Source: a virus
DNA length: 64,000 bases
Virus record (IMG/VR): IMGVR_UViG_3300007512_000008
Location: 1 to 64,000 of that record
Direction: 5' to 3' (one strand)
The notes under the pieces are model-generated. The model was not told the DNA's origin and ran no database searches. It worked only from the letters and a program-made list of their open reading frames with translations. The translations under genes were made by a program, and so were the position numbers. Each line of letters begins with the position of its first letter. Position 1 is the stretch's first letter. Of this stretch, positions 10,296 to 56,784 are shown in pieces.

Positions 10296-10321
10296 AGTGT
10301 GGGGGTTCCCCAGGAGCCCCC

Positions 10322-31993: not shown

Positions 31994-32707
31994 ATGTCTA
32001 CAGCAGCCACACCCTATGAGAGTCAGACCAAGAGAGACCGCAAGCGTCTCCTCAACAACCTTCCTGTGGGAACCCGCCGAGTCCGGATTCTCAATGCACA
32101 GGGGAAGCAGCAGTACAAGCGGCCTGAGGACGTCGACGTCGATCGGGATATCATCCCTCTGAACAAGAACGGTGTCCCCATTGTGATGCGGAAGAAGCCG
32201 GGGGCTCCGGTCAAGACCCGCTCCCAACTCAATCCCCTGTCGTCCCAGATCGGTCAGGTCATGGACGCTCGGGACGAGTGGATCTCCACCAACGATCTCC
32301 TGTCCCAGGCTATGGATGACGCCTCGGGAGATCCCTTCCTTGACCTTGTGCTGGTCAACATGATCGCGGAGGCCGTCAACATCGAGTTCGAGCGGGTGGA
32401 GCTCCAGCGCCATGGCCAGGGTTCCGATGCTGCGGATCTCTCGACCAAGCGTGCTCGTGTCCTCAAGGCGATCGCTGACCTGGTCCTCAACCGTCGGAAG
32501 ATCGCGGACGGGGCTCTGATCGACCTCGACTCTCCGGTCTTCAAGGCGCTGTTCACTCTCCTGCTGGAGACCTTCCGTGAGGCCATGGCCACCGGAGGCT
32601 GTCGCTCCGAGCAGATCGAGCAGACCTTCACCCATATGGTGTCCTCCCTGGATGGTGACTCCTGGAAGGGTGAGGCGCGTGCCCGGATGAAGGATGCCTT
32701 GAAGTGA
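31994..32707 (+). CDS. Candidate small terminase subunit
   Basis: A 237-aa mostly helical protein directly upstream of, and overlapping by 4 nt, the large terminase gene. The basic N-terminus (TKRDRKRLLNN) and helical core (LTLLLETFREAMATGG-like segments) are compatible with a small terminase that recognises packaging DNA. The assignment is by position. No HTH is clearly visible, so it could be another head-packaging protein. Confidence 0.6.
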   Translation: MSTAATPYESQTKRDRKRLLNNLPVGTRRVRILNAQGKQQYKRPEDVDVDRDIIPLNKNGVPIVMRKKPGAPVKTRSQLNPLSSQIGQVMDARDEWISTNDLLSQAMDDASGDPFLDLVLVNMIAEAVNIEFERVELQRHGQGSDAADLSTKRARVLKAIADLVLNRRKIADGALIDLDSPVFKALFTLLLETFREAMATGGCRSEQIEQTFTHMVSSLDGDSWKGEARARMKDALK

Positions 32708-34647
32708 GCCTCGCTGACCTGGCTGCCGCGGTCGGTAGAAGGTCCTCCGATCAAGAGGTCACCAAGGTCGCGGATATCATCACCTTCGTTGAGTCCCCCT
32801 GGGGACTGGGGCTCCGCCTGTATCCTGTCCAGAGGGTCATCCTCAAGGCCCACTATGGGATCGCCCTGGATGACAATCCTCACAACTTCCCTCTCGATGT
32901 CCCCATCCCCAAGGACCACCCCGCCTATGACGAGGAGTTGGTCGACGTAGACGGGTTCTACAAGTTCCGCATCCCGATTACGGATTGGCGCCGGGAGAAC
33001 GAGAAGTTCTTCACTGAAGCGGGATACCTGGCCTGGCTGTTCAAGCAGGGCCGCTGCAACATCGAGAAGGTGGTTCCGGGCCAGCAGCGCCGAGAGATGG
33101 TCCTCTCGATTGGACGCCGGTCGGGCAAAACCCTCATCACCTCTTGCATCGTCGCATACGAGACCTACAAGCTCCTGCTCAAGCCCAGCGCTCAGGAGTT
33201 CTACGGGGTCTCCCCCTCCAACATCATCCAGCTGATCTCTGTCGCCACGGACAAGGACCAGGCAGGTCTCCTGTACCAGGAAGCCTCCGGCCACTTCCAG
33301 AAGTGCAAGTTCTTCGCCGCCTATGCGGCCAACGCCACCCAGAGCTTCGCTACCTTCCAGACTCCTCATGACATCGACAGGTACGGCACCTACAAGGACA
33401 ACAACAAGGCTCGGTTCTCCATCAAGGTCACCTTCAAGTCCTGTGTTGCGAAGGGCCTTCGGGGTGGGAACAATATCCTGGTCGCTCTTGATGAGGCGGC
33501 CCACTTCGGGGAGAAGGGACAGGCTTCGGCAGATGAGGTCTACCAGGCCGTGGAGCCCTCCACCCGAACCTTCTCCCCGAAGACCAAGAGGGACAAGACT
33601 CGCGTGGTCCGGGACCCGAAGACAGGGAAGCCGATGCCCAACGAGGGGCGGATCATCATGATCTCTTCCCCCCTCGGGAAACAGGGTCTCTTCTACAAGT
33701 CCTATCGTGTGGGATTCGGAGACAACCTGGCGGCGCAGAACATGCTCTGTGTCCGAGCACCTACCTGGGAGGTCAATCCCACGGTCCCCGGAGAGACTTT
33801 CGTCGGATCGTACCTCAAGGACCCGGCTGTCTTCGCAACAGAGTTCGGGGCTGAGTTCACTGATCGAACCCGGGGTTGGGTCGAGAACGCCAAGGATCTG
33901 TTGGACTGTGTGGATCCGGATCTCCGCCCCCGCCGCCGCGCGCCGGCTCGAGTCCCCAACTTCATGGGAATCGATGTCGCGCTTGTCGGTGACTGGTGCT
34001 CGTTGGTAATCGGACACAACACCCCAGACAAGCGCGTCGCGGTGGATTTCTACGAGAGGATCCGCGCTGGAGAGGGGGACTACGTCGGGCTGGATCGCTT
34101 GGAGTTCGAGGACGTCGCTGACTGGATCGCCTACTGGGCAAAGAGGTTCTACATCTACGAGGGGATCTTCGATCAGTGGGCCGGAATCCCCCTGGAACAA
34201 GCCCTGAAGCGCCGGGGGCTGAACCAGCTTCTCTCCGTGACGCACAACCGGAAGCTGTCCAGCCAGATGTACCAGAACCTCAAGAACATGATGCTGGATC
34301 GCCGGCTGGTCCTGTATGACTGGCCCCTCCCTCCCGAGGGCAAGGGACACAGCCCTCTGATCCAAGAGCTCCTGGAGCTCCAGGCAGAGAGGATCTCCAA
34401 GTACGTCATCAAGGTGTCCGCTCCTAACGAGGATGGGAAGCACGACGATATCTCTGATGCCCTCTCTCGCATGGTTTGGTCCGCAGTCAAGAACGGGGGT
34501 CGGGTCAATCGGGTGACTGGCGTATCTCGGAACACGAACCCCGGCTCGGGGGTTCGTTTCGGGAGGGCTCCTCGGATGGCTCGAAGAGGGGGCTCCCATG
34601 TATCCCGTCAGCCTCGGATGGCGAAGCTGGGGTACAGGAGGAAGTAA
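32704..34647 (+). CDS. Terminase large subunit
   Basis: A 647-aa DNA-packaging motor. The ATPase has Walker A SIGRRSGKTLIT near residues 136-147 and Walker B LVALDEAAHF near 258-267, then a coupling motif (ISSPLGKQG). The RNase H-type nuclease has FMGIDVALVGDWC near 419 and a late DDISDALSRM near 580. A basic C-terminus follows. It translocates DNA into proheads through the portal and cuts the concatemer. GTG start in a GTGA overlap with the preceding gene. Confidence 0.95.
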   Translation: MSLADLAAAVGRRSSDQEVTKVADIITFVESPWGLGLRLYPVQRVILKAHYGIALDDNPHNFPLDVPIPKDHPAYDEELVDVDGFYKFRIPITDWRRENEKFFTEAGYLAWLFKQGRCNIEKVVPGQQRREMVLSIGRRSGKTLITSCIVAYETYKLLLKPSAQEFYGVSPSNIIQLISVATDKDQAGLLYQEASGHFQKCKFFAAYAANATQSFATFQTPHDIDRYGTYKDNNKARFSIKVTFKSCVAKGLRGGNNILVALDEAAHFGEKGQASADEVYQAVEPSTRTFSPKTKRDKTRVVRDPKTGKPMPNEGRIIMISSPLGKQGLFYKSYRVGFGDNLAAQNMLCVRAPTWEVNPTVPGETFVGSYLKDPAVFATEFGAEFTDRTRGWVENAKDLLDCVDPDLRPRRRAPARVPNFMGIDVALVGDWCSLVIGHNTPDKRVAVDFYERIRAGEGDYVGLDRLEFEDVADWIAYWAKRFYIYEGIFDQWAGIPLEQALKRRGLNQLLSVTHNRKLSSQMYQNLKNMMLDRRLVLYDWPLPPEGKGHSPLIQELLELQAERISKYVIKVSAPNEDGKHDDISDALSRMVWSAVKNGGRVNRVTGVSRNTNPGSGVRFGRAPRMARRGGSHVSRQPRMAKLGYRRK

Positions 34648-35188: not shown

Positions 35189-35509
35189 GTGGAAAGGAAG
35201 GCCCTACAGGATCGGGATGCGCGCGTGGGTTCCCATGTGTTCACCGCTCTTCAAGAGATAGAGTCTGCCATCCGCATCTCTCGCGACCACACCCAAACCC
35301 GACAAGCGCGGAAGGCGCACCGGGATCTTCTTCATATCCGGGACGGCCTGAAGAGAATCTCCTCCGCATCCCCCAACTGGTCCGATCCGGACACTATTCC
35401 TGAAGAGGAATGGTCTCGGAGGGCTCGGGAGAAAAGAGAGCAACGACGGAAAGAGCTCATGGAGAAGAAGCTGAAGCAGGCGACCCAGGCGGAGGCCTCT
35501 GATGAGTAA
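35189..35509 (+). CDS. Small charged helical protein before portal
   Basis: A 106-aa protein starting at GTG 35189 (an alternative GTG lies at 35162). It is helical and very basic in its C-terminal half (SRRAREKREQRRKELMEKKL), predicted coiled coil. It overlaps the portal gene by 8 nt. Function unknown; it may assist head assembly. Confidence 0.65.
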   Translation: MERKALQDRDARVGSHVFTALQEIESAIRISRDHTQTRQARKAHRDLLHIRDGLKRISSASPNWSDPDTIPEEEWSRRAREKREQRRKELMEKKLKQATQAEASDE

Positions 35510-37202
35510 AGACAAACAGGAGGGAGTCCCTGTAGGGAAGGTGAGTAGCGGCGACGGGAAGAAGCGCGCCAAGACAGGGAAGCCTCGGAAGATCATCGTC
35601 GGGAGCATGCGTTCTCGGTACGCAGCAGTCGGATCCATGGCCAACACGGTCCAGGGATACGGGGGCAACTTCTACAGTCCTGAGCTCTCCACGGACTTCC
35701 TCGAGCTTCCCCAGAGCCTCCACGAGAAGTGGGCCTATTACCGGTTCTTCTATGAGAATGAGCCGTTCGTAGGGCAGGCGCTCAATCTTCATGTTGAGCT
35801 CCCCATCTCCAAGATCCGGATTGGGATCCCCAAGGCCAAGAACCGAGAGATCGCTCTGGCGGCCACCCGGTTCTGCACCAAGTGGGCCCGTCGGGTTCGT
35901 CTCGTAGAGCGCCTCATGTCGATGGTCCACGAGAGGAATCTGATCGGAGAGGCGTTCGTCTGGTTCGAGGATGAGAACCCCGAGATGCCTCAGGAGGTTC
36001 GCCATGAAGCGCGGAGGACCCTGACTACAGAAGGGGAGGCTGTAGAGGAATGGGTCCTCCGTGAGGATGCCGACCAGCGCGCTTCCAAGTGGCTCCGGAA
36101 GAACTACAAGGGATGGACGGACGTCCGGTGTCTCCCTCCGGAGCAGATCCGCTTCGAGTCCTTCAACTTCACAAGCGAGATGCTGTTCGAGGTCATCCCG
36201 GATTCGAAGACCAAGCGCATCGTGGATCGCGCAAAGCAGGGAGATCCCCAGGCCCAGCGGGTCGTCAAGACGATGTCCGCCGATGTGGTCCGTGCCTGTG
36301 TAGAGGGGCGCAATGTCCCCCTGAACACCGACCCTGATGCTGGCTCCTTCATCTACTATCTGGCCAACAAGCGGTCGGACTACCAGGCGCGCGGGACTTC
36401 CATTCTCCAGCGCTGTATCCGTGCTCTTGTCTACCGGGACAAGCTCCGCCAAGCCCAGACCAGCATCGCCTCTCGCCATATGACCCCCATCCGGATTGTC
36501 TGGGGGGAAGACATGAGCGAGGGGGATGTCGAAGATCTGCGCGAACAGGTCGACATGGCGCTGATGGATCCGGACTACTCCATCATCACCAACTTCCAGG
36601 TCAACTGGGAAGAGATGGGGGCGGACCAGCGTCTGCTGGATCTCAACGGAGAATACGACCTCACCGATCGGCAGCTGTACGCAGGACTCTCGGTTACCGA
36701 GGGTCTTCTCTCGGGGGAGTCCTCCTACTCTGGGGACCGGGCCAACCTCGAGGTCATCAACACTCGGTACATGTTGCTCCGAGAGCAACTCCAAGCCTTC
36801 GTTGAGGACTTCGTGTTCCGGCCGATGTGTGCTCGGATGGGGTTCATCGAGAAGGACGAAGATGGCGAGGATGTGGTGGTAGTTCCCTCCCTGACCTTCA
36901 CTCGTCTGGCTCTCCGCGACAACCGCGACACCTTCGATGCTCTGTACAACCTGTACACCAAGGGCAGCTTGGACGTCGAGACCATCCTTGAGCTCCTGAA
37001 CCTTGATCCTGTCCTGGTCCGCGAGCGGATCGAACGGGATCTCTGGACTGTCAACGATCCGACCTTCAACGAGGTCCTGCGGGGCATCTACGGAGATGCG
37101 GGTCGTGAGCTCGTTGGATCTACGAACATCCTTGAGGTCTTGGCCAAGGCCCTCAAGCTCGAGTACAACCCGCCCTCTGATGACGGCGACGGCCGGTTCT
37201 GA
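35502..37202 (+). CDS. Portal protein
   Basis: A 566-aa protein with the marks of phage portals. After a basic N-terminus there is the clip/stem region (LHEKWAYYRFFYENEPFVGQ). The crown and stem helix segment follows (YAGLSVTEGLLSGESSYSGD, then NLEVINTRYMLLREQLQAFV), then a C-terminal domain with VVVVPSLTFTRLALRDNRDT. It would form the dodecameric channel at the head vertex and bind the terminase encoded just upstream. ATG 35502 overlaps the preceding gene. Confidence 0.9.
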   Translation: MSKDKQEGVPVGKVSSGDGKKRAKTGKPRKIIVGSMRSRYAAVGSMANTVQGYGGNFYSPELSTDFLELPQSLHEKWAYYRFFYENEPFVGQALNLHVELPISKIRIGIPKAKNREIALAATRFCTKWARRVRLVERLMSMVHERNLIGEAFVWFEDENPEMPQEVRHEARRTLTTEGEAVEEWVLREDADQRASKWLRKNYKGWTDVRCLPPEQIRFESFNFTSEMLFEVIPDSKTKRIVDRAKQGDPQAQRVVKTMSADVVRACVEGRNVPLNTDPDAGSFIYYLANKRSDYQARGTSILQRCIRALVYRDKLRQAQTSIASRHMTPIRIVWGEDMSEGDVEDLREQVDMALMDPDYSIITNFQVNWEEMGADQRLLDLNGEYDLTDRQLYAGLSVTEGLLSGESSYSGDRANLEVINTRYMLLREQLQAFVEDFVFRPMCARMGFIEKDEDGEDVVVVPSLTFTRLALRDNRDTFDALYNLYTKGSLDVETILELLNLDPVLVRERIERDLWTVNDPTFNEVLRGIYGDAGRELVGSTNILEVLAKALKLEYNPPSDDGDGRF

Positions 37203-42151: not shown

Positions 42152-42189
42152 TCAGGACGCAGATGGACAGGAGTCTCCATGCGTCCTGA
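42152..42189 (+). promoter_or_regulatory. 10-bp hairpin enclosing RBS and start codon
   Basis: TCAGGACGCA (42152-42161) pairs perfectly with TGCGTCCTGA (42180-42189). The ATG at 42179 lies at the base of the 3' arm (its T and G are paired), and the CAGGAG ribosome binding site is in the 18-nt loop, which also contains TGGA/TCCA for further pairing. In RNA it would restrict initiation of the 42179 gene. Confidence 0.55.
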
Positions 42190-42817
42190 CCCAAAGAAGG
42201 TTGCTGCTGCTTTCCTCGCGCAGAAGTCCGGTATGTCTCGGACGGCGGGTGAGGTTCGGTTCGTCAAGGATCGTGGGGGTGACAAGTCCGAGTGGGGTTG
42301 GAACACCCCCGGCCCGTCTGAGAGAGATATCTCGGACAACTTCGTGTTCAACGCGGAGAACCTGAAGCCGTTGGCTTTGGTGATGCGGTCGGTCCTGATG
42401 GGATTGGGCCACGCCACTTCGGCGCACACTCGGATGGTGAAGATCAAGAGCCGGAACGTTAGCCCTGATGGGGCTCTCGGAGGCAAGGGGTACATTCAGA
42501 AGATCCCGGACCTGCGGCGCCAGCTCATGAACTGTGTCGAGGTTCTCTCTGCGATTTCCGATACCCTGTACGATGAGATCAAGGCCCCTCACTGGGATCC
42601 CTCCGAGGACAAGATGACTCCACGGGACCGCGACGAGGTTCGTGAGATCGTAGAGGACGCTGAGGAGATCAAGGAAGATCCTGAGGCCTGGGCGGATGAG
42701 CAGGAAGAAGAGCTCGATGAGGAACACGACACCCTCGCTGTCCACAAGCAAGCAAGCCAGAAGGTGAGCTTGCACCGGGTGATCCGGAACTTCCAGAGGA
42801 GCACCGATGTCGGATAG
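42179..42817 (+). CDS. Virion-region protein with N-terminal PxxVAxxFLA motif
   Basis: A 212-aa protein. It begins MRPDPKKVAAAFLAQKSG, an N-terminal pattern repeated in the 45212 and 48181 proteins. A helical middle (RQLMNCVEVLSAISDTLYDE) and a very acidic C-terminal region (EEIKEDPEAWADEQEEELDE) follow. It overlaps the next gene by 11 nt. Position among probable packaged or injected proteins suggests a virion role. Function unknown. Confidence 0.7.
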   Translation: MRPDPKKVAAAFLAQKSGMSRTAGEVRFVKDRGGDKSEWGWNTPGPSERDISDNFVFNAENLKPLALVMRSVLMGLGHATSAHTRMVKIKSRNVSPDGALGGKGYIQKIPDLRRQLMNCVEVLSAISDTLYDEIKAPHWDPSEDKMTPRDRDEVREIVEDAEEIKEDPEAWADEQEEELDEEHDTLAVHKQASQKVSLHRVIRNFQRSTDVG

Positions 42818-45215
42818 CACGATCCACCAGCTGGGCAATGCGGAGCTCCCCGCTGACCTGTTCACGGAGACCCTGGCGAACGGCTTTGGGCTCGGTGAGT
42901 ACCCTGACATGCAATACGGAATGGGGTCTCAGTCAGCCGTTGTCCTGCAGGACGGCCCCACGACTGCACCTGCTGTTCCTGACGGTCTGGCGAAGGGGTC
43001 CGCAGAGGATCTCGATCTCCGTTCTCTGATCGCCGAGACCGTCCCCGATCTCGATTGGCTCGACGCCAGCCTCCTGGAGCAGGATCCCGCGCGCCTTCCG
43101 AAGAACCCAACGGACGTGATCCCGGAGCTCGTTGACGCTTGGAGCTCCGACGGCCCTTCTCTCACAGCACAGACTCGAGACCTTTCCCGCGTTCGGTACG
43201 AGGAATCTCTCAAGGAGGGCTCCGGGACTTCCCAGAAGGCTTCCGTCAAGCAGATGCGAGAAGTGGCTTCCAAGGCGATGCGTCGGTCTGTGATGGGTCA
43301 CGATATCGCGACCATCATCCGCGAGGCTCAGGAGTGTATGGGGGAAGAGGCGGCCCGGTTGGAGCCTCTCCTCAAGATGGTCCTCGCTGAGCATGGCCTG
43401 GCGGGGAATGTGTTCATTCGAGCTGCTGCCTATCCCAAGTACGGGTCGGGCCAGTGGGGAGCCCACCTCCGGAGATATGCACGGGACGCCCGGTATGTGG
43501 TGGTCTCTGAGCGGGATCTCAAGAACGCAACCTGGATCCAGAACGGTCGGTGCTCTCTCACCGGCAAGTTCGCCGTCACGAAGGTCCCCTGGGAAGAGGC
43601 AGTCACCCACTACAAGTCTCGGCTGGCTGGCCGCTCTCCTTCTCGCACTGGTCTGCGTTCTGCGTTCCTCCAGAGGGAGGGTCTCTCCAAGAAGGCCAAC
43701 AGCTGGCTTCCACACCACACGGCTGCTGCTGATCGGGTCTCCACTGAGGAGGCGTGGAAGGCGTTCGCGTCGTACAAGCCCGAGGTTCCTCAGCTTCGGG
43801 ATCCGAAGGCCGTGCGGCTGGCTTCGGACAAGCGGGCGGCAGAGGAGAAGATCAACTCCCTCGTCGCTCAGGGAGTTCTCCCTGAGGTGGACCGGGATCG
43901 TATCCTGGCCTCTGGCGCTTCTCCCTCTGACCAGTTGAAGGCGGCAGCTCAGATCGCTGCTCTCCCCAAGGTCTCTGCGTACCAGGGAGTGCAGAACAAG
44001 GCCAACGAGGTCAATCGAGATCTGTATCTGGCGCGGCTCGAGATGAGCCACCTGGCTGCTCAGGAGCGTGTCTCCCGCCTCCGTGTCGAGGCTTCGCGCC
44101 GCTCTCAGGCAGCCATTCAGGACCTGGTGGATCGAAAGATCCTCAAGGCCTCCGAAGCGAAGGCGATGCTGGAGTCCGGCAAGTCGGTCCACGCAATCCT
44201 CCGCGCAGCAGCCAAGATCTCCCTCATCCGACAGGGTGAGTTCAGCGGCCAGAACAACAACGCAGCTGAGGCGGGAGTCCAGAGGGTTGTCTCCGGAGCA
44301 GAGAAGAACCAGGCTCGTATCCGCACTGCCCAGACCAACATCGACCGTCGTGTCCGGAGGGAAGCAGCGGAGAGTACCCTCGAGGCCCGCGCCGCCCAGG
44401 ATCGCGTCACCCGGCTCAAGGCAGGGTATCGGGAGGTCCGCCGGGCGATCGAGGCTGGCGCCCGTGGTCAGGTCCTCAAGAACATCATCGCCAAGACGTT
44501 CCATGGGAACGATGCCGAGATTGGCCGTCGTATGCTCGCTGGCCTCCTGGAGCGCACAGGAGCCCTGAAGGAGCCCACCAAGGCCAACTATGAAGGGAAG
44601 TCCTTCAAGATCCATCAGGCAGAGGCTCGGAAGGCTCGGTTCTCTGGGACCGAAGCCCGGAAGGTCCTGTCTTGGCTCGGCCGGACCCTCTCTGAGGGCT
44701 TCGCAGGGAAGCCCTTGGATGAGCTCATCCAGCGTCGGTTCACTGCTCGGACACGGGAGGCTCTCAAGAGCGAGATCTTCGTAGCTCGGACCTCCCACGA
44801 GGGTGGTGCAGGGTTCGTCTATGTGGACGCCTCTGCGTATGCAACCCTCAAGGGGGTCAAGGGGTGCGAGACCGGGGCCCTCAAGCACCGGGCGAATCAG
44901 ATCCCCTCCGTCCTGGAGATGAGCCGGTGCGCTTCTTGCTCCCTGGTCTCGACTCGGGAGAACGGCGAGCGGGTTTGCTCCCTGTACAACAAGGTCCTGC
45001 TCGCCGACGCTCGGGGTCCCGAGATGGACCGCATCCGTTCGGCCAACGTCCAGGTAGCCAACATGAGCCGCGCGGAGCAGACCCAGTCTCTGTTCGCCGG
45101 TGTCTACGATCCAGCGGAGTTCGATCTCCAGAACACCAATCTGGAGGGGATCTCTCCCGGGATGCCTGAGACGGACAAGTTGGCTGAGATCTTCTTCGAG
45201 ACGCGACTGCAGTGA
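42807..45215 (+). CDS. Large helical virion-region protein with C-terminal Cys cluster
   Basis: An 802-aa protein of unknown family. An N-terminal region (ELPADLFTETLANGFGLGEY) and a central long helical, Arg/Ala/Gln-rich section (about residues 300-560) are followed by a domain containing EMSRCASCSLVSTRENGERV with a third Cys (CSLYNK), a possible zinc site. It overlaps genes on both sides. Size, location and composition suggest an internal or injected virion protein, but no enzymatic motif is seen. Confidence 0.7.
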   Translation: MSDSTIHQLGNAELPADLFTETLANGFGLGEYPDMQYGMGSQSAVVLQDGPTTAPAVPDGLAKGSAEDLDLRSLIAETVPDLDWLDASLLEQDPARLPKNPTDVIPELVDAWSSDGPSLTAQTRDLSRVRYEESLKEGSGTSQKASVKQMREVASKAMRRSVMGHDIATIIREAQECMGEEAARLEPLLKMVLAEHGLAGNVFIRAAAYPKYGSGQWGAHLRRYARDARYVVVSERDLKNATWIQNGRCSLTGKFAVTKVPWEEAVTHYKSRLAGRSPSRTGLRSAFLQREGLSKKANSWLPHHTAAADRVSTEEAWKAFASYKPEVPQLRDPKAVRLASDKRAAEEKINSLVAQGVLPEVDRDRILASGASPSDQLKAAAQIAALPKVSAYQGVQNKANEVNRDLYLARLEMSHLAAQERVSRLRVEASRRSQAAIQDLVDRKILKASEAKAMLESGKSVHAILRAAAKISLIRQGEFSGQNNNAAEAGVQRVVSGAEKNQARIRTAQTNIDRRVRREAAESTLEARAAQDRVTRLKAGYREVRRAIEAGARGQVLKNIIAKTFHGNDAEIGRRMLAGLLERTGALKEPTKANYEGKSFKIHQAEARKARFSGTEARKVLSWLGRTLSEGFAGKPLDELIQRRFTARTREALKSEIFVARTSHEGGAGFVYVDASAYATLKGVKGCETGALKHRANQIPSVLEMSRCASCSLVSTRENGERVCSLYNKVLLADARGPEMDRIRSANVQVANMSRAEQTQSLFAGVYDPAEFDLQNTNLEGISPGMPETDKLAEIFFETRLQ

Positions 45216-48181
45216 AGCCGAACCCAGCCCGCGTGGCTGTGCGTTGGGCCGTATCCCAGCAGCAAGCAGCCCCGAAGCCCATGGCGCCCGTTGGGAAGCC
45301 AGGGGTTCATGTGGGTCTGTTCTTCCCCGTCCCCGAGGATATCGCTGATCAGTTCCCGGAGAAGGAGCAGGACAAGTCCAACCCCCACGTGACCTTCCTG
45401 TATGTGGGAGAGGTGGAAACCTCTCGGGAACAGGAGCTCGTAGAACTGGTCTCCGACTTCTTCCTGGAGCTGCCGGCTATCCGGGCCTCTCTGGGCCCTA
45501 TGGACTACTTCCTGACGCCAACCCAAAAGGTGGTGTTCAGCTCGGTCCGTTTCTCCCATGACATCTCGAGTATCCGAGACCAGATCCGGGAAGCTCTCCT
45601 GAAAGCGGGCTTCCGTGTCAAAGATGCCTCCCCTATCCGATGGCATCCCCACGTAACCATCGCGTATGTCAGCCCGGAGGAGAACCTCAAGCTGGCGCCG
45701 CCCAAGGGGTCCTGGGATATCGAGACTGTGCGGGTCTGGGGCTTCTCCAAGGAGCACACGATCCTGTTCGGAGGTGCGGGCCGCCGTCCTACCTTCAAGA
45801 GCATGTCCCATCGGGTCGCTGCCAAGTACAAGTCCAAGAAGGATGTCAAGGGTCCCGACGGCAAGACCCACACGATCTACGAGTACTCGGACCAGCACAA
45901 CGCGAACAAGGACAAGGACAAATCCAAGAGGGTCGAGAAGCTCCGCCAGAGCCTCTCGAAGCTCCGGAGCAAGTACCGTAAAGGGCTGTCAGCAGAGGAC
46001 GCTCGAGAGCGTCTCACGGCCCTCGCCGTTGCTCTGGTAGACTGCACCTACGAGCGCGTCGGGAATGACGGCTCCGCCAAGGAAGGACACTTCGGTGTCA
46101 CCGGCTGGCAGAAGAAGCATGTCACCATCTCTGGGAATACAGCCACCTTCAAGTACACCGGGAAGTCGGGGATCGACCACGAGAAAAAGGTCACCAACTC
46201 CAAGGTGGTCGGGGCTCTCAAGAAGGCACTCGAAGGGAAGAAGCCCGGGGACAAGATCCTTTGCGATGGCGATGAGTGTGTGATCTCAGCCACCCAGGTC
46301 AATCAGTACCTGTCGGAGTTCGGAGTCACCGCCAAGGATATCCGAGGCCTCCACGCCAACGAGGAGATGAAGAAGAGTCTCTCGGCCATCCGCAAGAAGG
46401 GACCCAAGCTTCCCTCCGACAAGAAGGAGCGGGAGAAACTCCTCAAGGATGAGTTCAAGCAGGCCCTCGAGTCCGCAGCCGAGGCAGTCGGCCACACCAC
46501 CTCCATTCTGCGCTCCAGCTATCTGGTTCCGGGTCTGGAGGACAAGTTCATGCAGGACGGAACGGTGATCAACAAGCTGAACAAGGCTGGCCGTACAAAG
46601 ACGGCTGCCTTTGACATCCTGCGGCACTGCCCCCACTGTCTGGGGATTGTGTCTGACCTGGCCAAGTTCTGGGATACCTGTACGGACTGTGGCTACGAGG
46701 TCAATCTGGGAGGCTTCTATAATGGGCGTGGTGATGCTCCTCACGGAGGAAAGCCTGTCGAGAGGATGGCCCGCGAAGACGCGTGGCAGCCGATTCCTGA
46801 GACGGATCCTCGCCTGATCAAGCAGGCCCTGGATACCTTCTCCCAGTACTCCCGAGGTCCAATGATGTGGATCGGGGAGGAAACACGCCTGGCCACACTT
46901 GAAGAGCTCGCCCAGTACCTGGAACGTGTCGGAGCTCCCATCCCTGCCGTTCCCCATACCAAGACTGCTGCGGGGAACCAAGAGGTCATCGAGGCTCCTC
47001 ACAACTTCCATCGAGTCAAGGTAGAGCCCCCACGAGCCAAGCGGAAGGTGTACCCGTTCGAGGGCTACATCGACTTCCAGGGCATCCAGATCGATGTAGA
47101 GAACAAGAAGGGGTCCTCTCGCTCCGGGGCGGATCCCGACGGGAACAAGTGGTCTATCAAGATGCACGCCCACTACGGGGAGATCCGTGGGACCGAGGGC
47201 ACCGACGGGGATAAGCTTGACGTCTACGTGGGGGAGAACCACGATTCCTCGGTGGTGGTCGTAGTTCACCAACAGGACCCCAGCACTGGCAAGTTCGACG
47301 AGGACAAGGTCCTGTTGGGATTCGACTCTCCTGAGGAGGCCATCGGTCTCTACAAGAAGCAGTACGACAAGCCAGGCTTCTTCAAGGAGGGCGAGTTCCT
47401 GACCATGCCCATTGGCCAGTTCTGGCGCTGGGTCAACGATCGGAAGAACAAGGGGAAGAAGGTGAAGGCTCGGTACTGGAGACCTCTCTCCGATGCTGTC
47501 GGGCTCAAGACTGCCAAGAAGGGCTCCTGGCAGGAGAGGTACTGGAAGACTGCCATTATCCACCTCTGGAACGCAACAGACGGAGAGGGTGATCTCCGGG
47601 GGAATCCCGGTCTTCAGTCGAGCCTGACTCTGTACGAGCGCGCGCTGATACAGGAGCTCTTGATTCATGAGCAGCCCATTCTCCGGACGGGCGAGCACTA
47701 CCACGTCCGGGACCACCGACTGGATCCCGAGGCGGTTGGGGAGCTCATCGGCGCAGGATATCTCGAGGAACTGGAGGACGGTTCGGTTGTCGTTTCTCCG
47801 ATGTACCACGCCAAGGCACGCCTGTATGGTGGGGGTCTGACTCTGAAGGAGCAGATCATGGCCTACGAGCTCGGGTACGACCACACCAAGTCTGCTGCGC
47901 GTCACGGTCCTCCGACTCAGGTTGGTCTCTCCTCTGTTCTGAAGCGGAAAGGTCTGGAGCCGGTCGATATCTGGTTCGGACAGGTTCGTCCCCACCGCCG
48001 GCCGACGGTGACCAAGCTCGAGGCTCTGCGCACACGCGCCGGAGATATCGTCTACTTTGCCGGGATGGATGGCAAGGGCGAGCCTGTCGTTGGCCGCACT
48101 GAGCGGGAAGCAAAGGAGCTCGCCAACGAGATCGTTAAGCTCCGCCTTCGCCACCAAACCCCAACGATCCACAGCACCTGA
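45212..48181 (+). CDS. Polyvalent protein: 2H phosphoesterase + topoisomerase IB + InPase-like domain
   Basis: A 989-aa multidomain protein. Residues about 30-190 are a 2H phosphoesterase with HVTFLYV (H59, T61) and HVTIAYV (H147, T149). Residues about 200-445 are a type IB DNA topoisomerase with all five catalytic positions: R282 (ERVGND), K318 (YTGKSG), R378 (KDIRGL), H428 (VGHTT) and Y437 (RSSYLVP). A zinc ribbon (CPHCLG, CTDCGY) follows. Then comes an InPase-like polyvalent domain near 612-745 (ENKKGSSRSGADPDG, HYGEIRGTEGTDGDKLDVYV) and a C-terminal helical region. It is probably packaged and injected to act on host or phage nucleic acids. Overlaps the previous gene by 4 nt. Confidence 0.85.
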   Translation: MKPNPARVAVRWAVSQQQAAPKPMAPVGKPGVHVGLFFPVPEDIADQFPEKEQDKSNPHVTFLYVGEVETSREQELVELVSDFFLELPAIRASLGPMDYFLTPTQKVVFSSVRFSHDISSIRDQIREALLKAGFRVKDASPIRWHPHVTIAYVSPEENLKLAPPKGSWDIETVRVWGFSKEHTILFGGAGRRPTFKSMSHRVAAKYKSKKDVKGPDGKTHTIYEYSDQHNANKDKDKSKRVEKLRQSLSKLRSKYRKGLSAEDARERLTALAVALVDCTYERVGNDGSAKEGHFGVTGWQKKHVTISGNTATFKYTGKSGIDHEKKVTNSKVVGALKKALEGKKPGDKILCDGDECVISATQVNQYLSEFGVTAKDIRGLHANEEMKKSLSAIRKKGPKLPSDKKEREKLLKDEFKQALESAAEAVGHTTSILRSSYLVPGLEDKFMQDGTVINKLNKAGRTKTAAFDILRHCPHCLGIVSDLAKFWDTCTDCGYEVNLGGFYNGRGDAPHGGKPVERMAREDAWQPIPETDPRLIKQALDTFSQYSRGPMMWIGEETRLATLEELAQYLERVGAPIPAVPHTKTAAGNQEVIEAPHNFHRVKVEPPRAKRKVYPFEGYIDFQGIQIDVENKKGSSRSGADPDGNKWSIKMHAHYGEIRGTEGTDGDKLDVYVGENHDSSVVVVVHQQDPSTGKFDEDKVLLGFDSPEEAIGLYKKQYDKPGFFKEGEFLTMPIGQFWRWVNDRKNKGKKVKARYWRPLSDAVGLKTAKKGSWQERYWKTAIIHLWNATDGEGDLRGNPGLQSSLTLYERALIQELLIHEQPILRTGEHYHVRDHRLDPEAVGELIGAGYLEELEDGSVVVSPMYHAKARLYGGGLTLKEQIMAYELGYDHTKSAARHGPPTQVGLSSVLKRKGLEPVDIWFGQVRPHRRPTVTKLEALRTRAGDIVYFAGMDGKGEPVVGRTEREAKELANEIVKLRLRHQTPTIHST

Positions 48182-50034
48182 TGATTGTCTCCCCCGAGCG
48201 TGTGGCCCGTCTGTTCTTGGCGACCAAGACACGTTCGGAGAAGGAAGAGGCTGAGGCGGAGCGGCTGATCAGGCCCTCTCCGAAGAAGAAGCCTCCTCGT
48301 CGGGATCTGGAACGAGGTCGGGTCAACGATAGCGAGGACGACCCGGACGAGAAGCAGGACAAGAAGGACCGGTCCCACAACTACAAGGACTCAAGCTTCG
48401 ACCTGGTAGCTTGGTGGTTCAAGAACGCTCGGGACACCAGTACGGTCAGGATGCGCAAGGTGGATACCGGGCGCGTCGTCGACGTCTCTCCGGACACTGT
48501 CTCTGAGAACCCAGGCGCGTACGAGGAAGTCACTGGGGACGATGCAACAGATACGGACGACGCTGATCCTGATGCAACCGAGGACACCCCTTCCGACACT
48601 CCCAGTTCTGATCCAAAAGGGGATGCCCCTCCCAAGCCTGACCCCTCCTCTCTCCCAGGGCCTACGGACCTCCCGGACAAGGACGCGTACGAGAAGTTCC
48701 GCTCCGATGCCATGGCTCGCTACACAGCCTTGGGGATAGCTGAAGACGAGGTTACTGAGATCTTGGACATGGTCTCGAACCAAGGGGACGCTGAGGAATC
48801 AGTGGTCCTGTTGGATGAGCTCGCGGATACGGCTGCTGCGGAAAAGGCGGACCGAGAGAAGGCCGAGAAGGCCGAGGCCGAAGCTCTCCAGAAGGAGCAG
48901 ACCGAGGCTGAAGAGGCTCGGAAGAAGGAGGAGCGGGACAAGCTCACCAAGGATCTCACTCAGGGTCTGCCGAGGGACCAGGAGTCTGCTCTTGAGAGGT
49001 CCCTCGGGAAGCTCTCTCCCGAGCAGTTCCAGGCGTTCTCGGAAACTCTGCAGAACCGGGTGTCTGACCTCAACGCGAGTCGTCCGGACATCAAAGAGTT
49101 CATGGAGGACCTCTCCGCGCGGAAGAAGGATCTCCGGGAAAGCACTGACCCGGCCCGGTTGGGAGAAGCCCTCGCGGCCGTGACCTACTTCAACACGGTG
49201 GTAGACAACCCTGCTGTGGATCTGGATAACCCTCTTCCGGAGAAGGGAGGGGACGAGCTGGAAGGGGATGCTCTGACTGAGGCCCGGAAGAAGTCGGTCG
49301 AGAGGTCCTCACGTGCAGTAGAGAAGTATCGTGCGATGTCCTCCGAAGATCGGAAACGTCACCTCAAGCGGCTGGACCAAGAGCTCCTGGATCTCCCAGA
49401 CGGATCGCCCCGCCGAGTAGAGCTTGAGGCGATTGAGAAGGGGTTGGGAATCGCTGCTGTCCTCGAAGAGGGAGACTCGGTTCGAGGAGCCGGCTCTGCA
49501 GTAGCCGGAGTCATCCGTGCTGCCGATACAGCTGGGGATCTTGACAAGATCCTATCTCTCTCTGTGTTGGAGAGCACCGATGCCCTGGGTTCGGATGACC
49601 AGCATATCATCCGTGGTGTCTACAACAACCTGGGCTCTATGGATTTCGTAGATGTGGTCGCCAAGGACCACCCCGCCCGTCCCCTCGCTGAACTCCTTGC
49701 GGACCCGGCGGGGAGCAAGAACATGTCCCGGGCGGACAGGGCGTTCATGAAAGAACTCCTGGTGGATGCCCTAGTCGCGGACACTGCCTTCCTGGATCCC
49801 CTCGTTTCAGGGGAGAGCGAAGGCCTCACGGTCAAGGAACACCGCAAGAAGTCTCTGAAGAAGCGGAAGAAGTTCACCCCATCGACCAAGATCCCAACGG
49901 ACGTCAAGGGCGCTCGTGGTTGGTTCGAAGAGTTCCTCGAGAACCTCTCCGCACCGTTCCGAAAGAAGTCCTCCTCCCACATTCCTTGGGATTTCACCCC
50001 CTGGAACCCCGAAACCATCACCTTCCAGACCTAA
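48181..50034 (+). CDS. Large acidic helical virion-region protein
   Basis: A 617-aa protein beginning MIVSPERVARLFLATK, the N-terminal motif shared with 42179 and 45212. A highly charged, Asp/Pro-rich disordered stretch (about residues 35-170) is followed by a long coiled coil (AEKADREKAEKAEAEALQKE) and a helical C-terminus. It also holds LPDGSPRRVELEAIE, a variant of the LPxGSxERRxxL motif. Probably a core or internal head protein. It begins at the last base of the preceding stop codon. Confidence 0.65.
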   Translation: MIVSPERVARLFLATKTRSEKEEAEAERLIRPSPKKKPPRRDLERGRVNDSEDDPDEKQDKKDRSHNYKDSSFDLVAWWFKNARDTSTVRMRKVDTGRVVDVSPDTVSENPGAYEEVTGDDATDTDDADPDATEDTPSDTPSSDPKGDAPPKPDPSSLPGPTDLPDKDAYEKFRSDAMARYTALGIAEDEVTEILDMVSNQGDAEESVVLLDELADTAAAEKADREKAEKAEAEALQKEQTEAEEARKKEERDKLTKDLTQGLPRDQESALERSLGKLSPEQFQAFSETLQNRVSDLNASRPDIKEFMEDLSARKKDLRESTDPARLGEALAAVTYFNTVVDNPAVDLDNPLPEKGGDELEGDALTEARKKSVERSSRAVEKYRAMSSEDRKRHLKRLDQELLDLPDGSPRRVELEAIEKGLGIAAVLEEGDSVRGAGSAVAGVIRAADTAGDLDKILSLSVLESTDALGSDDQHIIRGVYNNLGSMDFVDVVAKDHPARPLAELLADPAGSKNMSRADRAFMKELLVDALVADTAFLDPLVSGESEGLTVKEHRKKSLKKRKKFTPSTKIPTDVKGARGWFEEFLENLSAPFRKKSSSHIPWDFTPWNPETITFQT

Positions 50035-50076: not shown

Positions 50077-50133
50077 TGGCTTCCGCTAAAGGTGAGTCGG
50101 CTCAGCCGTCCCTATCTCTGTGGAGACTGTGAA

Positions 50134-51072
50134 ATGACCAACAAGCTGACCCGGCTCGGTGCTCGGAACCTGACTTCGGCGATGGACAACGTCGCCGATA
50201 CGATCCAGACCCACTTCGCTCTGCTGGGCATCGACCCGAAGATCGCCGGGGACTATGCCCTGCGGACCGATCTTCTCTCCGATGTCATCGAGCGGCGTGC
50301 CTCTGAGAACTTCCCCAAGAACGCGGACATGGATCTCTCCGTCATCGGAGAGACCACCACCGCTTCCTCTGTCCCCGGCTACGCAGGGTTCACCGCTCAG
50401 ATCCGTGAGCTGGAGGGCCTCGCGACCCAGGCTGCTGAGATCTCCGCCCAGGTGGAGGAGGCCGTCGGCCCTCTCCTGCGGGAAGGCTCGGTTCTGGACG
50501 CCGGCCAGAAGAAGATCCACAAGGCCATCGTCGACGGGTACAAGCAGCACCTGGGGCAGATCGGAGACATCATCATCGAGCGCAAGACAGCTCTGGTGGG
50601 CGCTCGTGCCCGCCTCAAGGTCACCCAGGTCCGCCGGACTCCCAACCAGGTTCAGGGGGAGCTCCTCACGGCCGTTACTGAGCGCTACGGCGCTGAGGTC
50701 GCTGACTTCATCGCCACCACCCAGTCGGCCCTCCGGGATGCCGAGAAGAACCTGCGGATCGCCTTCAAGGGCTTCGAGCTCGAGCAGCGTGCTCTCACCG
50801 CCTCCGGCAAGACGGCGGGCCTCGCCGATCTTCTGGCCCGGTTCCAGGAGACCCTGTCCAAGACCTGGCAGCGTATCGTTCAGGTGGTCCAGAACGCCGT
50901 CGGTCTGGTCTCCGGGGCGGCCAAGCGCGTCACCACGGCCCATGACGACTTCATGGAGGCCTTCTCCGCAGCACAGTCCAAGGCTGCCTCTGATGACGAG
51001 GATGCTGAGGACACCGACAAGGAAGCCTCCCAGACCGACAAGGTCGCGGGCCCCTTCAACCTCTTTGCGTAG
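50134..51072 (+). CDS. Probable core-like head protein
   Basis: A 312-aa, helical, strongly codon-biased protein. ATG 50134 is chosen over the upstream 50092 codon because the intervening residues are Cys-rich and non-conserved, and GTGGAG lies closer. Segments such as AALLDSV-type helices and GFTAQIRELEGLATQAAEIS suggest coiled coil. The C-terminus is acidic with a FNLFA end. High expression and its own TTTATA element fit an abundant late virion protein, perhaps a prohead core component. No motif proves it. Confidence 0.7.
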   Translation: MTNKLTRLGARNLTSAMDNVADTIQTHFALLGIDPKIAGDYALRTDLLSDVIERRASENFPKNADMDLSVIGETTTASSVPGYAGFTAQIRELEGLATQAAEISAQVEEAVGPLLREGSVLDAGQKKIHKAIVDGYKQHLGQIGDIIIERKTALVGARARLKVTQVRRTPNQVQGELLTAVTERYGAEVADFIATTQSALRDAEKNLRIAFKGFELEQRALTASGKTAGLADLLARFQETLSKTWQRIVQVVQNAVGLVSGAAKRVTTAHDDFMEAFSAAQSKAASDDEDAEDTDKEASQTDKVAGPFNLFA

Positions 51073-52397: not shown

Positions 52398-53855
52398 ATG
52401 GCTCACTCCAAGAAAGCATATGCGATGCTCACCCATCCCCGGATCACCGGGCGTGGTTGGGGCAAAATGCGTCGGAAGGCGACGTCCGGGGCTTCCTCGG
52501 CCAACCTGTCGGATCAGGCTCGTCTGATCCTCGGCGGGCCTCTGGATCCCGACAAGTACCTCTTCTCGCACTGCACCATCGTGGCGTCGGTGGATATCGA
52601 TCCCGTCCCGGGTGTCCGTATGGGCACTGTCAAGGTAGGGAACTCGACCATTGACCGTCGCTATGGCGACTACTACATCAGGCCCACCAGTTCCCAGTAT
52701 GTGAACAACAACGGGGACTCTTGGTCTCGCCCAGTGCTGCTGGCCAGCTATCCGACCTTCGTCGGGGGCCACAACTTCCTCGAGCATGTCCAGGTTGCCT
52801 CCAAGTCCAAGGGCCGGATCATCGATGCGGTCGCTCGGGATGTTGGGGACTCGGTCTACATCGACATCCTGGTCGCGACCAATCGGAAGCATGCTTCCCT
52901 GATCTCGGACATCAAGTCCGGACGTCTCAACACCCTCTCGATGGGCTGTACCACCGACTTCACGATCTGCACCAAGTGCGGACACGTGGCGGTGGACGAG
53001 ACCGACCTCTGCGACCACGTCAAGGTTGCCAAGCTCGACACCTTCCTCGACGAGCGGAACGAGCGTCGGATCATCGCCGAGCTCTGCGGCCACATCTCTC
53101 ACAACGAGACGGGGGGTGTCAACTTCATCGAAGCCAGCTGGGTTGGGATCCCGGCTTTCACTGGCGCGGTGATGCGAAACATCCTGCAGATCGCCAACCT
53201 CGATGAGCGCGAGTCCGAGATTCGCCGGATCCTCGCCAGTCAAGGTCCCTCGTGGTCGGAGGCTGCCATGATGAAGGCAGCCAAGTTCGACCCCCAAAGG
53301 TTCCTGGTTGGACAAGGGGACGAGGACAACGAGGATCAAGAGCCAGAGCCAACCCCGGAGCCCGAGACCAAGGACACTCTCCAGAAGCTCGAAGATGACC
53401 TGGTTGACCGAGTCAAGGACCGCGTGCAGGACCGCCTCCGCTCCGAGATGCGTTCCGATGAGGGTGACAAGACCCTTGGGGACTCCGACTGGCCCAATGA
53501 CACTCTGAACAGGGAAGCCCGGACCCGGGTAGCCTCCAACACCCGCCGTCGCTACAAGATCGCGGTGGAAACGGCTCTCCGGCATGCGACCTCTCAGATC
53601 GCTCTCGTCGACTCGGTCGCTCGGATCAACATCGCCCACGATATCCGGATCCCCGTCTCCATCTATCGCGCCGCTCTCGAGGCTGGCTCCTCTTCTCGCT
53701 ACGCTGGAACTCAGCAGTACGTGAATCGGATGCAGCACCTCCTGGGTCGCCGCATCAGTCCCGCCGAATTCCGGGTTGTTGTCCGGGTCGGCTCCCTGCT
53801 CTCCCAGTGGGAGCAATTCAACAACCCGCAGTCATCCTCCCCGAGGAGTTCCTAA
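52398..53855 (+). CDS. Head maturation (prohead) protease
   Basis: A 485-aa protein. A central domain includes GGHNFLEHVQVASKSKGRII and RLNTLSMGCTTDFTICTKCG, the pattern of prohead serine proteases in large phages, with a His near residue 120-130 and a Ser in LSMGC near 180. A CxxC zinc-like unit follows (CTKCGHVAVDETDLCDHV). A Pro/Glu linker (about 315-335) and a C-terminal helical region come last, possibly scaffold-like. It should process the scaffold and capsid encoded immediately downstream. ATG follows the endonuclease stop by one base. Confidence 0.75.
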   Translation: MAHSKKAYAMLTHPRITGRGWGKMRRKATSGASSANLSDQARLILGGPLDPDKYLFSHCTIVASVDIDPVPGVRMGTVKVGNSTIDRRYGDYYIRPTSSQYVNNNGDSWSRPVLLASYPTFVGGHNFLEHVQVASKSKGRIIDAVARDVGDSVYIDILVATNRKHASLISDIKSGRLNTLSMGCTTDFTICTKCGHVAVDETDLCDHVKVAKLDTFLDERNERRIIAELCGHISHNETGGVNFIEASWVGIPAFTGAVMRNILQIANLDERESEIRRILASQGPSWSEAAMMKAAKFDPQRFLVGQGDEDNEDQEPEPTPEPETKDTLQKLEDDLVDRVKDRVQDRLRSEMRSDEGDKTLGDSDWPNDTLNREARTRVASNTRRRYKIAVETALRHATSQIALVDSVARINIAHDIRIPVSIYRAALEAGSSSRYAGTQQYVNRMQHLLGRRISPAEFRVVVRVGSLLSQWEQFNNPQSSSPRSS

Positions 53856-55027
53856 TGGCACGTCAGCGCCTCTCATGGATCGAGGAAGCTCGTCGAGCTT
53901 CCGCCCACCCCGCAACCCCCGACGAGGGTCCGGCCTCTCCCGCAGGCAACGGTGAGGACCCCACCGCCGACGCCTACGAGAACGGCGACACCTCCTCGTG
54001 GGCCTCTGACCCGCACCCGCACCCCGGCCCCTACCCGGACAGCGCCCACCCCGCCACGCCCGACGAGGGCTCGGACCACCCGGCCGGCAAGTCCGCCTCC
54101 GACGAGATCTCTCCCGAGACGAACCGTCGCGCCTCCCAGTGCGTCCGCATCGCGACCGCCATGCTCGGCGAGCCCGACAGCCCCGCCAAGGTCGCCGCCA
54201 TCGAGGCGCAGGCCATCGAGCTGATGCACCTCCCCGACGCTTCCATCACCGCCAGCCTCAAGCGGCTCGGTCTGGACGGCGACGGTGAGGACGACACCGA
54301 CAAGGAAGCCTCTTCCAAGATCTCCAAGAACACCGACCGGATCGCCCGGCTCGAGCGCGTTCTGATCCGCCTCGCCGACGACGACCTGGACGAGGAGGCC
54401 GCCACCAAGAAGGCTTCGGCTGAGCTGGAGACCCGCGTGGCGCGGCTCGAGCGCATCCTCGTCAAGCTGGCTGAGGAAGACGAGGATGACGACGGCGACC
54501 GGATCGCCCGGCTCGAGCGCGTTCTGATCCGCCTCGCCGAGGAGGAGGAGGAAGAGGACCCCGCCCCGAAGGCTGCCGCCACGGACAAGAAGGCCGACGA
54601 CCTGCTCCTCGAGGAGATGCTCCGCGAAGAGGGGATGCTGGACAAGAAGGCCGACGACCTGCTCCTCGAGGAGATGCTCCGCGAAGAGGGGATGCTGGAC
54701 GAGCCCTGCGGCATGGGTGAGCCCTCCATGGACGAGCCCTCCGGCGACACCGAGCTCGAGATCGATCTCGCTGAGGAGGATCCCATGACCATCCTCGCCG
54801 ACGACGACCTGGACGAGGAGGCCGCCACCGTGCTCGCCTCCCTGTACAGCGAGACCCCCGGCGCGAACCGCGAGGCCGCCACCGAGCCCGAGCGCCGGCC
54901 GCAGCCCAAGAAGGCGAGCACCGGTGCCTCCAGCCTCGGCAACGTCCGGACGGCGTCCAACGACTCCGACGTGGCTCAGCTCGAGAACCTGTGGAAGTCG
55001 GCTCCCGACGTCTCCGCGCTCATCTGA
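53855..55027 (+). CDS. Repeat-rich acidic scaffold-like protein
   Basis: A 390-aa, very acidic, helical protein between the head protease and capsid genes, the place of a T4 gp22-type scaffold. It has internal repeats: HPATPDEG twice, DRIARLERVLIRLA twice (plus a related copy), a 19-residue unit DKKADDLLLEEMLREEGML in perfect tandem, and DDDLDEEAAT twice. Strong C-ending codon bias suggests high expression. Its stop is followed by a strong terminator. It starts at the last base of the protease stop (TAATG). A scaffold role is inferred from position and composition. Confidence 0.8.
   Translation: MARQRLSWIEEARRASAHPATPDEGPASPAGNGEDPTADAYENGDTSSWASDPHPHPGPYPDSAHPATPDEGSDHPAGKSASDEISPETNRRASQCVRIATAMLGEPDSPAKVAAIEAQAIELMHLPDASITASLKRLGLDGDGEDDTDKEASSKISKNTDRIARLERVLIRLADDDLDEEAATKKASAELETRVARLERILVKLAEEDEDDDGDRIARLERVLIRLAEEEEEEDPAPKAAATDKKADDLLLEEMLREEGMLDKKADDLLLEEMLREEGMLDEPCGMGEPSMDEPSGDTELEIDLAEEDPMTILADDDLDEEAATVLASLYSETPGANREAATEPERRPQPKKASTGASSLGNVRTASNDSDVAQLENLWKSAPDVSALI
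54335..54540 (+). repeat. 44-bp direct repeat (54335-54378 and 54497-54540)
   Basis: Two identical 44-bp blocks encode DRIARLERVLIRLA. Exact identity at the DNA level, including silent positions, implies recent duplication or gene conversion within the scaffold-like gene. Confidence 0.8.
54371..54829 (+). repeat. 36-bp direct repeat (54371-54406 and 54794-54829)
   Basis: Two identical blocks encoding LADDDLDEEAAT, separated by about 390 bp within the same gene. Confidence 0.75.
54584..54697 (+). repeat. Perfect 57-bp tandem repeat, two copies
   Basis: 54584-54640 and 54641-54697 are identical and encode DKKADDLLLEEMLREEGML twice. Copy number could change by slippage without breaking the frame (57 is a multiple of 3). 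Confidence 0.85.
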
Positions 55028-55911: not shown

Positions 55912-56784
55912 ATGCCCGCAACCAACGCAGTCAAGGCTCGCCTCATCAGCGAGTTCATCGGCACCCAGGCTGGCCGTCACAAGCTCGCCGCGTCGATGAC
56001 CCAGCCCCTCCGGCTCCGCCGGGACTACATGGCCGTCGGCCGGAAGACCTTCCTCGTGGAAGAGCTCCCGGATGGCGCGCTGCCCATCTACGACAAGGAT
56101 CCGGACGTCACCGCGTACCTGGTCGGTGAGGAAGGCGAGAACATCGTCGCCGTCACCAAGCCCCGGCGCGTGTCCTTCCCGCTGTTCGAGATCGCCTCGA
56201 ACCCGGAGATCCCGCTGACGCAGATCAAGGAGCGCCGCTTCGACCTCATCGAGCGCGCCCAGGACCTGGCCCGTGCCCAGATCCAGGCCGCCGAGGACGA
56301 GCGCGTCTTCGCGATCATGGACTCGATCGCCACCAACGGCTTCGACTCCATCGCCGGTGGTGAGAACCCCGACATCCCCGTCGTCGCCCCGATCTCCGGC
56401 GCTGTCCTCGCGGACGCCTTCGCCGCGGTCGAGCAGCACGACCTCCGGGTGGCCCGGGTGTTCATGAACGCCGTCGACTACGCGGACATCCGCAAGTTCG
56501 GCCGGGACATCCTCGACGTCGAGACCCAGCGCGACCTCATCCAGACCGGCCTCATGGGTCGCCTCTGGGGTGCCAGCGTCATCGTCAGCCGCCTCGTGCC
56601 GGCCGGATTCGTCTACATCTGCTGCGAGCCCGAGAACTTCGGTCGGATTCCGGTCCGTACCGAGCTCACGGTCCTCAGCGCCGACGACCCGCGCGCCCGC
56701 ACCATTGGCTTCAGCGTTTTCGAAAACTTGGGCATCGGGGCCTTCAACCCCAAGGGCCTCTGCCGCCTGACGATCGCACGGTAG
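55912..56784 (+). CDS. Major capsid protein (HK97-like)
   Basis: A 290-aa protein matching HK97-fold capsid proteins of large myovirus-like phages. Landmarks are RLRRDYMAVGRKTFLVEELP, the E-loop/A-domain region NAVDYADIRKFGRDILDVET, and the C-terminal SVFENLGIGAFNPKGLCRL. It has very strong codon bias toward C-ending codons. It follows the decoration-like gene by 12 nt with GGAGGGAC before ATG 55912. It forms the capsid shell after cleavage by the protease at 52398. Two hairpins follow its stop. Confidence 0.9.
   Translation: MPATNAVKARLISEFIGTQAGRHKLAASMTQPLRLRRDYMAVGRKTFLVEELPDGALPIYDKDPDVTAYLVGEEGENIVAVTKPRRVSFPLFEIASNPEIPLTQIKERRFDLIERAQDLARAQIQAAEDERVFAIMDSIATNGFDSIAGGENPDIPVVAPISGAVLADAFAAVEQHDLRVARVFMNAVDYADIRKFGRDILDVETQRDLIQTGLMGRLWGASVIVSRLVPAGFVYICCEPENFGRIPVRTELTVLSADDPRARTIGFSVFENLGIGAFNPKGLCRLTIAR

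Follow-up and report, generated by a model that had tools for sequence, protein, structure and literature searches.

The window analysed was a 64,000-nucleotide stretch (positions 1 to 64,000) of the 126-kb virus record IMGVR_UViG_3300007512_000008, and the genes of its packaging and head module described here lay on the plus strand. The module included genes for the terminase large subunit (32704..34647; phrog_2, E 5.1e-24), the portal protein (35502..37202; phrog_16240, E 5.7e-27), a head maturation protease candidate (52398..53855; phrog_18299, E 6.3e-13) and the major capsid protein (55912..56784; phrog_2522, E 2.5e-49). Between portal and protease were found a 212-aa head-module protein (42179..42817) in which a motif scan located an N-terminal KVAAAFL, an 802-aa head-module protein (42807..45215), the 989-aa fusion protein that is the subject of this analysis (45212..48181), a 617-aa protein (48181..50034) with an N-terminal RVARLFL, and a conserved 326-aa head-module protein rich in [KR]xA[SAG] (50092..51072). 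An acidic protein dense in the same short pattern, probably acting as a scaffold, was encoded at 53807..55027. A GIY-YIG/NUMOD3 homing endonuclease gene was inserted at 51563-52396 between two head-module genes, just upstream of the head protease, and a similar gene occurred in the same region of LR745208, a 485-kb uncultured phage (L003 17229-18089). Shortly downstream of the major capsid protein gene, a cysteine-dioxygenase-like protein was encoded at 57687-58157 (phrog_4786, E 6.7e-34).

The fusion gene was an uninterrupted reading frame with no internal stops, whose GTG start overlapped the upstream gene's stop codon and whose last base also served as the first of the next gene's ATG (48181). 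An assembly chimera was rejected as unlikely because the same 989-aa protein, 100% identical, was present on an 87-kb contig of another metagenome (L001/L005). A sequence-only reading of this DNA had placed 2H phosphoesterase, type IB topoisomerase (TopoIB) and InPase-like domains in one protein, and all three were recovered by Pfam above the curated cut-offs. The 2H phosphoesterase domain (aa 31-187; 45302..45772) matched 2_5_RNA_ligase2 (PF13563, aa 50-158, E 9.5e-13) and retained both HxT motifs as that reading had said, namely H59VT and H147VT; the HxT/HxT pair was invariant in 23 of 23 relatives with a 2H domain. The TopoIB domain (aa 202-457; 45815..46582) matched Topoisom_I (PF01028, aa 231-432, E 6.5e-27), and its closest sequence match in the PDB was the D. 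radiodurans TopoIB. The polyvalent-type InPase domain (aa 602-754; 47015..47473) matched InPase (PF18823, aa 617-741, E 5.8e-41) and carried the conserved acidic motif EIRGTEGTDGDKLDVYVG, with DGDKLDV from aa 665; its closest PDB match was a portal protein with a C-terminal InPase (9b41 gp19). Two further parts had been missed earlier: a zinc-ribbon-like linker (aa 464-535, CPHC...CTDC; 46601..46816) shared with the relative L006, its CxxC...CxxC stretch lying at about aa 472-493, and a helical C-terminal region (aa about 779-873; 47546..47830) common to some relatives (L013, L031, L034 and L069). A structure model of the whole protein was confident for the 2H and TopoIB domains only, the C-terminus and the InPase, whose polyvalent type is marked by loss of the beta hairpin seen in cellular InPases, being modelled poorly.

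The five catalytic residues of TopoIB (R282, K318, R378, H428 and Y437) were found exactly at the positions given by the sequence-only reading and in the order required for a type IB topoisomerase. A profile search of viral contigs gave 80 TopoIB loci with 46-67% identity (the identical copy excepted), mostly on contigs longer than 50 kb and reaching a maximum of 536 kb. After removal of near-duplicates a non-redundant set of 63 loci was obtained, which took in one phage record and two MAG contigs, and the pentad was invariant in all 63. The domain was modelled with AlphaFold2 from 44 sequences (pLDDT 85.8), and a Foldseek search with the model ranked the variola topoisomerase (2h7g) first with a TM-score of 0.72, followed by the TopoIB enzymes 6z01, human and D. 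radiodurans, with Xer recombinases far weaker. A degenerate TopoIB or a tyrosine recombinase was rejected on the intact pentad and the Foldseek ranking. Judged from the conserved residues and the predicted fold, the active site is very likely functional. When genome contigs were scanned with the single TopoIB domain as query no match was returned; the scan with an alignment as query returned the two MAG contigs, in both of which TopoIB was located among phage head genes. Among phage records, the only close match was a metagenomic genome.

The position of the gene was conserved in most relatives. A locus was counted as a head locus when portal or protease was present on the examined stretch, and by this definition TopoIB was part of the packaging/head module, with its terminase, portal, protease and major capsid protein genes, in 49 of the 63 non-redundant loci. 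In the other 14, the examined stretches placed TopoIB outside the head module; they reached only about 10 kb to each side, so that counts of absence are lower bounds. Where both portal and protease were present (n = 39), TopoIB was located between them in 31 loci and after the terminase but before the portal in 8. LR745208 had largely the same gene set, with TopoIB after the portal; its TopoIB protein carried a HAD 'Swiss Army Knife' (HAD_SAK) phosphatase in place of 2H, and the 2H domain was found in a different protein.

The partners of TopoIB were interchangeable. TopoIB occurred alone (about 350 aa) or within proteins of up to 2834 aa. Fused or adjacent to it in the 49 head loci were 2H (23 loci), a CCA/poly(A)-polymerase-type nucleotidyltransferase (19), the HAD_SAK RNA-repair phosphatase (9), InPase (4), PAP2 (3) and, in a single TopoIB ORF (L062, aa about 1301-1500), an RNA ligase. 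GNAT, Nudix, ART-PolyVal and LPD1 were occasional partners, the polyvalent domains LPD1 and ART-PolyVal being found in relatives or their cargo ORFs. An RNA-end enzyme was present near TopoIB in 32/49 head loci compared with 0/14 non-head loci; in the other 17 head loci, stand-alone 350-aa TopoIB loci among them, none was found on the examined stretch. The same parts could be fused or separate. For example, in L006, the closest relative, 2H, HAD and CCA-type domains were all in the upstream ORF, followed by an ORF that combined TopoIB with InPase, while L039 distributed 2H, CCA plus InPase, and TopoIB over three genes. Because relatives vary in this way, the 2H-TopoIB-InPase set should be regarded as one draw from a toolbox, and the suggestion that this exact set is special was not borne out; a special function of the fusion as such was rejected. 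What should be taken as the unit is rather a modular cargo locus centred on TopoIB and biased to RNA-end chemistry. In the 126-kb record itself neither a CCA-type transferase nor an RNA ligase was found, and the RNA-repair reading therefore rests on relatives. Inteins interrupted some of the CCA/poly(A)-polymerase domains of head-cargo proteins (the L008 and L034 TopoIB ORFs). On a 315-kb viral contig (L002), stand-alone 2H-like and InPase proteins were encoded about 2.6 kb apart (6373-7131 and 9740-10678), and no TopoIB was seen near this pair.

A second element separated the head loci from the others. The gene that follows the fusion gene (48181..50034) encodes, besides its N-terminal motif, a module PSPKKKPPRRDL...YKD that in most relatives was fused behind TopoIB and was thus called the post-TopoIB module. 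Its pattern, PSPKxKPPRxDL...DLSLNYKD, was present in 49/49 head loci versus 0/14 of the others. This split makes chance, in the form of low complexity, an unlikely source of the similarity between the next gene and the TopoIB ORFs of relatives.

The same proteins shared a short motif, RVAxR[YFW]L, which was first spotted by eye and afterwards tested on other genomes. In the fusion protein a motif scan located RVAVRW at aa 7-12 (45230..45247) and RVAAKY at aa 201-206, immediately before TopoIB (45812..45829). A copy started at residue 7 in three unrelated head-module proteins of the window, as RVAVRW in the fusion protein, KVAAAFL in the protein at 42179 and RVARLFL in the protein at 48181. RVAxR[YFW] was observed 62 times outside TopoIB cores against 1.1 expected from shuffling, a figure that overstates independence as some copies are kin by descent. 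All 71 motif copies lay outside enzyme domains and none within them: 28 before TopoIB, 32 between modules and 11 at protein ends. Because copies were partly related by descent, three large genomes were also tested whole, and terminal copies numbered 11 against 0.33 expected in the 536-kb genome G004, 8 against 0.40 in the 512-kb genome G012, and 4 against 0.25 in LR745208, where the separate 2H protein likewise had a copy. The strict motif was absent from the single 50-kb stretch taken from each of phiKZ and PhiXhv-15 (30,611 aa in total), and the motif peptide strings tried were not found in print in the literature searched. Motif-bearing proteins elsewhere included a UvrD-type helicase, a DNA-binding protein, a DRAT-type ADP-ribosyltransferase and a DnaJ protein. 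In G012, the motif near the start was combined with a DRAT-type ADP-ribosyltransferase (E 1.1e-10) or a DnaJ domain in the proteins at L176:4734-5924 and L165:2465-3865, which are candidates for further head cargo. A UvrD-type helicase of a 536-kb phage contained an intein (L098:15402-19997).

The linkers of these proteins were also enriched in [KR]xA[SAG]. Observed and expected counts were 360 and 81 in the scaffold-like protein, 175 and 79 in the protease, and 303 and 186 in the linkers of TopoIB ORFs, while TopoIB cores were depleted (4 vs 52) and the terminase and non-head controls were about as expected. In the fusion protein the pattern or a near form of it occurred at 463, 584, 766 (as KTAK) and 893, all between domains. 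Two of these are the KTAA sites behind TopoIB (aa 463-466; 46598..46609) and ahead of InPase (aa 584-587; 46961..46972), which are candidate head-protease sites by motif enrichment. That [KR]xA[SAG] is the site of the head protease is possible, with low confidence.

Taken together, these results suggest that the gene encodes a polyvalent head-cargo protein built around an intact TopoIB, which would be injected with the DNA and deliver the topoisomerase together with RNA-end-repair enzymes. We consider this reading probable, though with considerable room for doubt, because of the place in the head module, the head-specific companion module, the polyvalent-type partners and the location of the motif outside the enzyme domains. 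The suggestion of the sequence-only reading that the protein is injected from the virion was indirectly supported by the same four lines. A polyvalent protein with TopoIB as its core would hold a constant place among the head genes throughout a large group of huge phages. Judging from the gene position, the fusion protein would be made late, alongside the head proteins, and could enter the prohead through its RVAxR[YFW]L motifs and the post-TopoIB module on the next gene. The head protease may then split it into single enzymes at the KTAA-type linker sites, which is the weakest step. After presumed injection together with the DNA, TopoIB might relax the incoming phage DNA for early transcription; the early change of supercoiling proposed in the sequence-only reading would follow by analogy with vaccinia, whose TopoIB is encapsidated and thought to serve early transcription (PMC12188299, its references 72 and 73). 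Repair of RNA ends that host defences have cut would fall to the 2H domain and, in relatives, to the CCA nucleotidyltransferase, HAD_SAK and RNA ligase, and the task of InPase would be to clear away pyrophosphate or a nucleotide product. Jumbo phages have been described by Iyer and colleagues as needing such repair after cutting by host nucleases (PMC7824862). A wider proposal, that RVAxR[YFW]L at protein ends and between modules marks the head cargo of huge phages, with TopoIB as the centrepiece and exchangeable RNA-repair enzymes (2H, HAD_SAK, CCA transferase, RNA ligase) brought in ready-made with the genome against tRNA-cutting defences, is tentative and somewhat more likely to fail than to hold.

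The role of the 2H and InPase domains is the part of this reading with the strongest competitor. These domains might chiefly destroy host alarm nucleotides (cyclic oligonucleotides, or molecules like 2'-5' oligoadenylate) instead of repairing RNA, a role suggested earlier for both domains in polyvalent proteins; in the 2017 survey of such proteins, 2H was never found together with an RNA ligase, and functions as an RNase or in degrading signals were preferred (PMC5512222). In the present loci, however, 2H was repeatedly fused to a CCA-type transferase and HAD_SAK, and an RNA ligase was part of one TopoIB ORF. Since CCA transferase and HAD_SAK co-occur with 2H, and RNA ligase occurs once with TopoIB, RNA repair is argued for in the lineage, although not decisively in the phage of the window. 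The destruction of alarm nucleotides is rather unlikely to be the main role but deserves serious weight; it competes with the head-cargo reading at a single step and could hold together with packaging in the head.

Other explanations bear on whether the protein is packaged and what for. Genes of the head module can be late genes without their products being packaged, and TopoIB could be an ordinary late enzyme for late DNA metabolism, its place reflecting historical gene order. The 14 of 63 non-redundant relatives whose TopoIB lay outside the head module (on the stretches examined) and the presence of TopoIB in distant jumbo phages (PMC7824862) would agree with this, but the locus has been kept at 46-67% domain identity across many architectures and its partner domains are of polyvalent type, so that we regard it as very improbable. 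A packaged TopoIB might instead relax torsion during head filling or ejection, with the partner enzymes as passengers. The enzyme is known to work without a cofactor, and its fixed place, in the portal-protease interval or directly behind the terminase, would suit such a task; however, the ends of linear DNA are free to rotate, and the recurrent fusion of RNA-end enzymes and InPase would be left unexplained, which makes this explanation unlikely. The motif could alternatively target proteins to an intracellular compartment. If RVAxR[YFW]L generally directed proteins into a compartment for replication, or one resembling a nucleus, the protein would act there after its synthesis and be absent from the virion. 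Motif-bearing genes are spread across the genome, and the UvrD-type helicase and the DNA-binding protein among them would fit such targeting. Against this, the motif copies of TopoIB ORFs are mostly in head-module genes and are repeated between modules, the post-TopoIB module is head-specific, and the motif bearers include an ADP-ribosyltransferase domain, which is typical of injected effectors. We give compartment targeting a small but not negligible chance.

If the head-cargo reading is true, an active type IB topoisomerase would travel in a phage particle, a bacterial-virus parallel to the poxviruses, and phages would bring ready RNA-repair enzymes that need not wait for expression. The reading is also relevant to the question whether 2H domains of polyvalent proteins serve RNA repair or signal degradation, and the shared short motif would offer a simple and testable way to predict which uncharacterised proteins of huge phages are carried in the head.

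The fusion protein resembles the polyvalent proteins (Iyer et al. 2017, PMC5512222), multidomain enzymes encoded near late or head genes. It combines 2H and InPase, two enzyme domains of the listed repertoire whose polyvalent proteins are encoded near late genes, with TopoIB, and its relatives bear LPD1 and ART-PolyVal. It differs in its TopoIB core, in the CCA-type transferase, HAD_SAK and RNA ligase partners, in the fixed huge-phage locus and in the shared motif; in that paper 'topoisomerase' occurs only in a reference title, and no earlier description of TopoIB as a polyvalent domain was found. The TopoIB of vaccinia and variola has the same catalytic pentad and fold, and the poxvirus enzyme is packaged and tied to early transcription (PMC12188299), but it is a single-function enzyme of a eukaryotic virus, whereas here TopoIB is a domain of a multi-enzyme phage protein whose packaging is presumed. 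Packaging of proteins in phage heads has precedents. P1 DarA is bound within the head (PMC12810830), and ejection proteins of giant phages have targeting propeptides and are processed by a protease (PMC5694885). The putative targeting motif, the candidate head protease and the presumed injection with the DNA would be shared with the internal (ejection) proteins of T4, SPN3US and phiKZ, which have capsid-targeting propeptides (PMC5694885). The motifs differ, being of the AxE/SxE cleavage type in those proteins and RVAxR[YFW]L here, where many copies are placed inside the protein between its modules. Portal or minor head proteins with a C-terminal InPase (PDB 9b41 gp19) have a homologous InPase on a head protein, although there the InPase stands alone on the portal, without TopoIB. 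The TopoIB proteins of the jumbo phages phiRSL1, Lu11, PaBG and Motura (PMC7824862) and of PhiXhv-15/Ep032 share the tyrosine-recombinase-type catalytic domain, but they are not described as head cargo or as fused to RNA-repair enzymes. The PhiXhv-15/Ep032 TopoIB had only about 29-30% identity across 66% of the domain. In PhiXhv-15, an isolated jumbo phage of Xanthomonas, this distant 668-aa TopoIB was encoded at L180:21174-23180, with lysis/tail genes on one side and a head-tail connector gene on the other.
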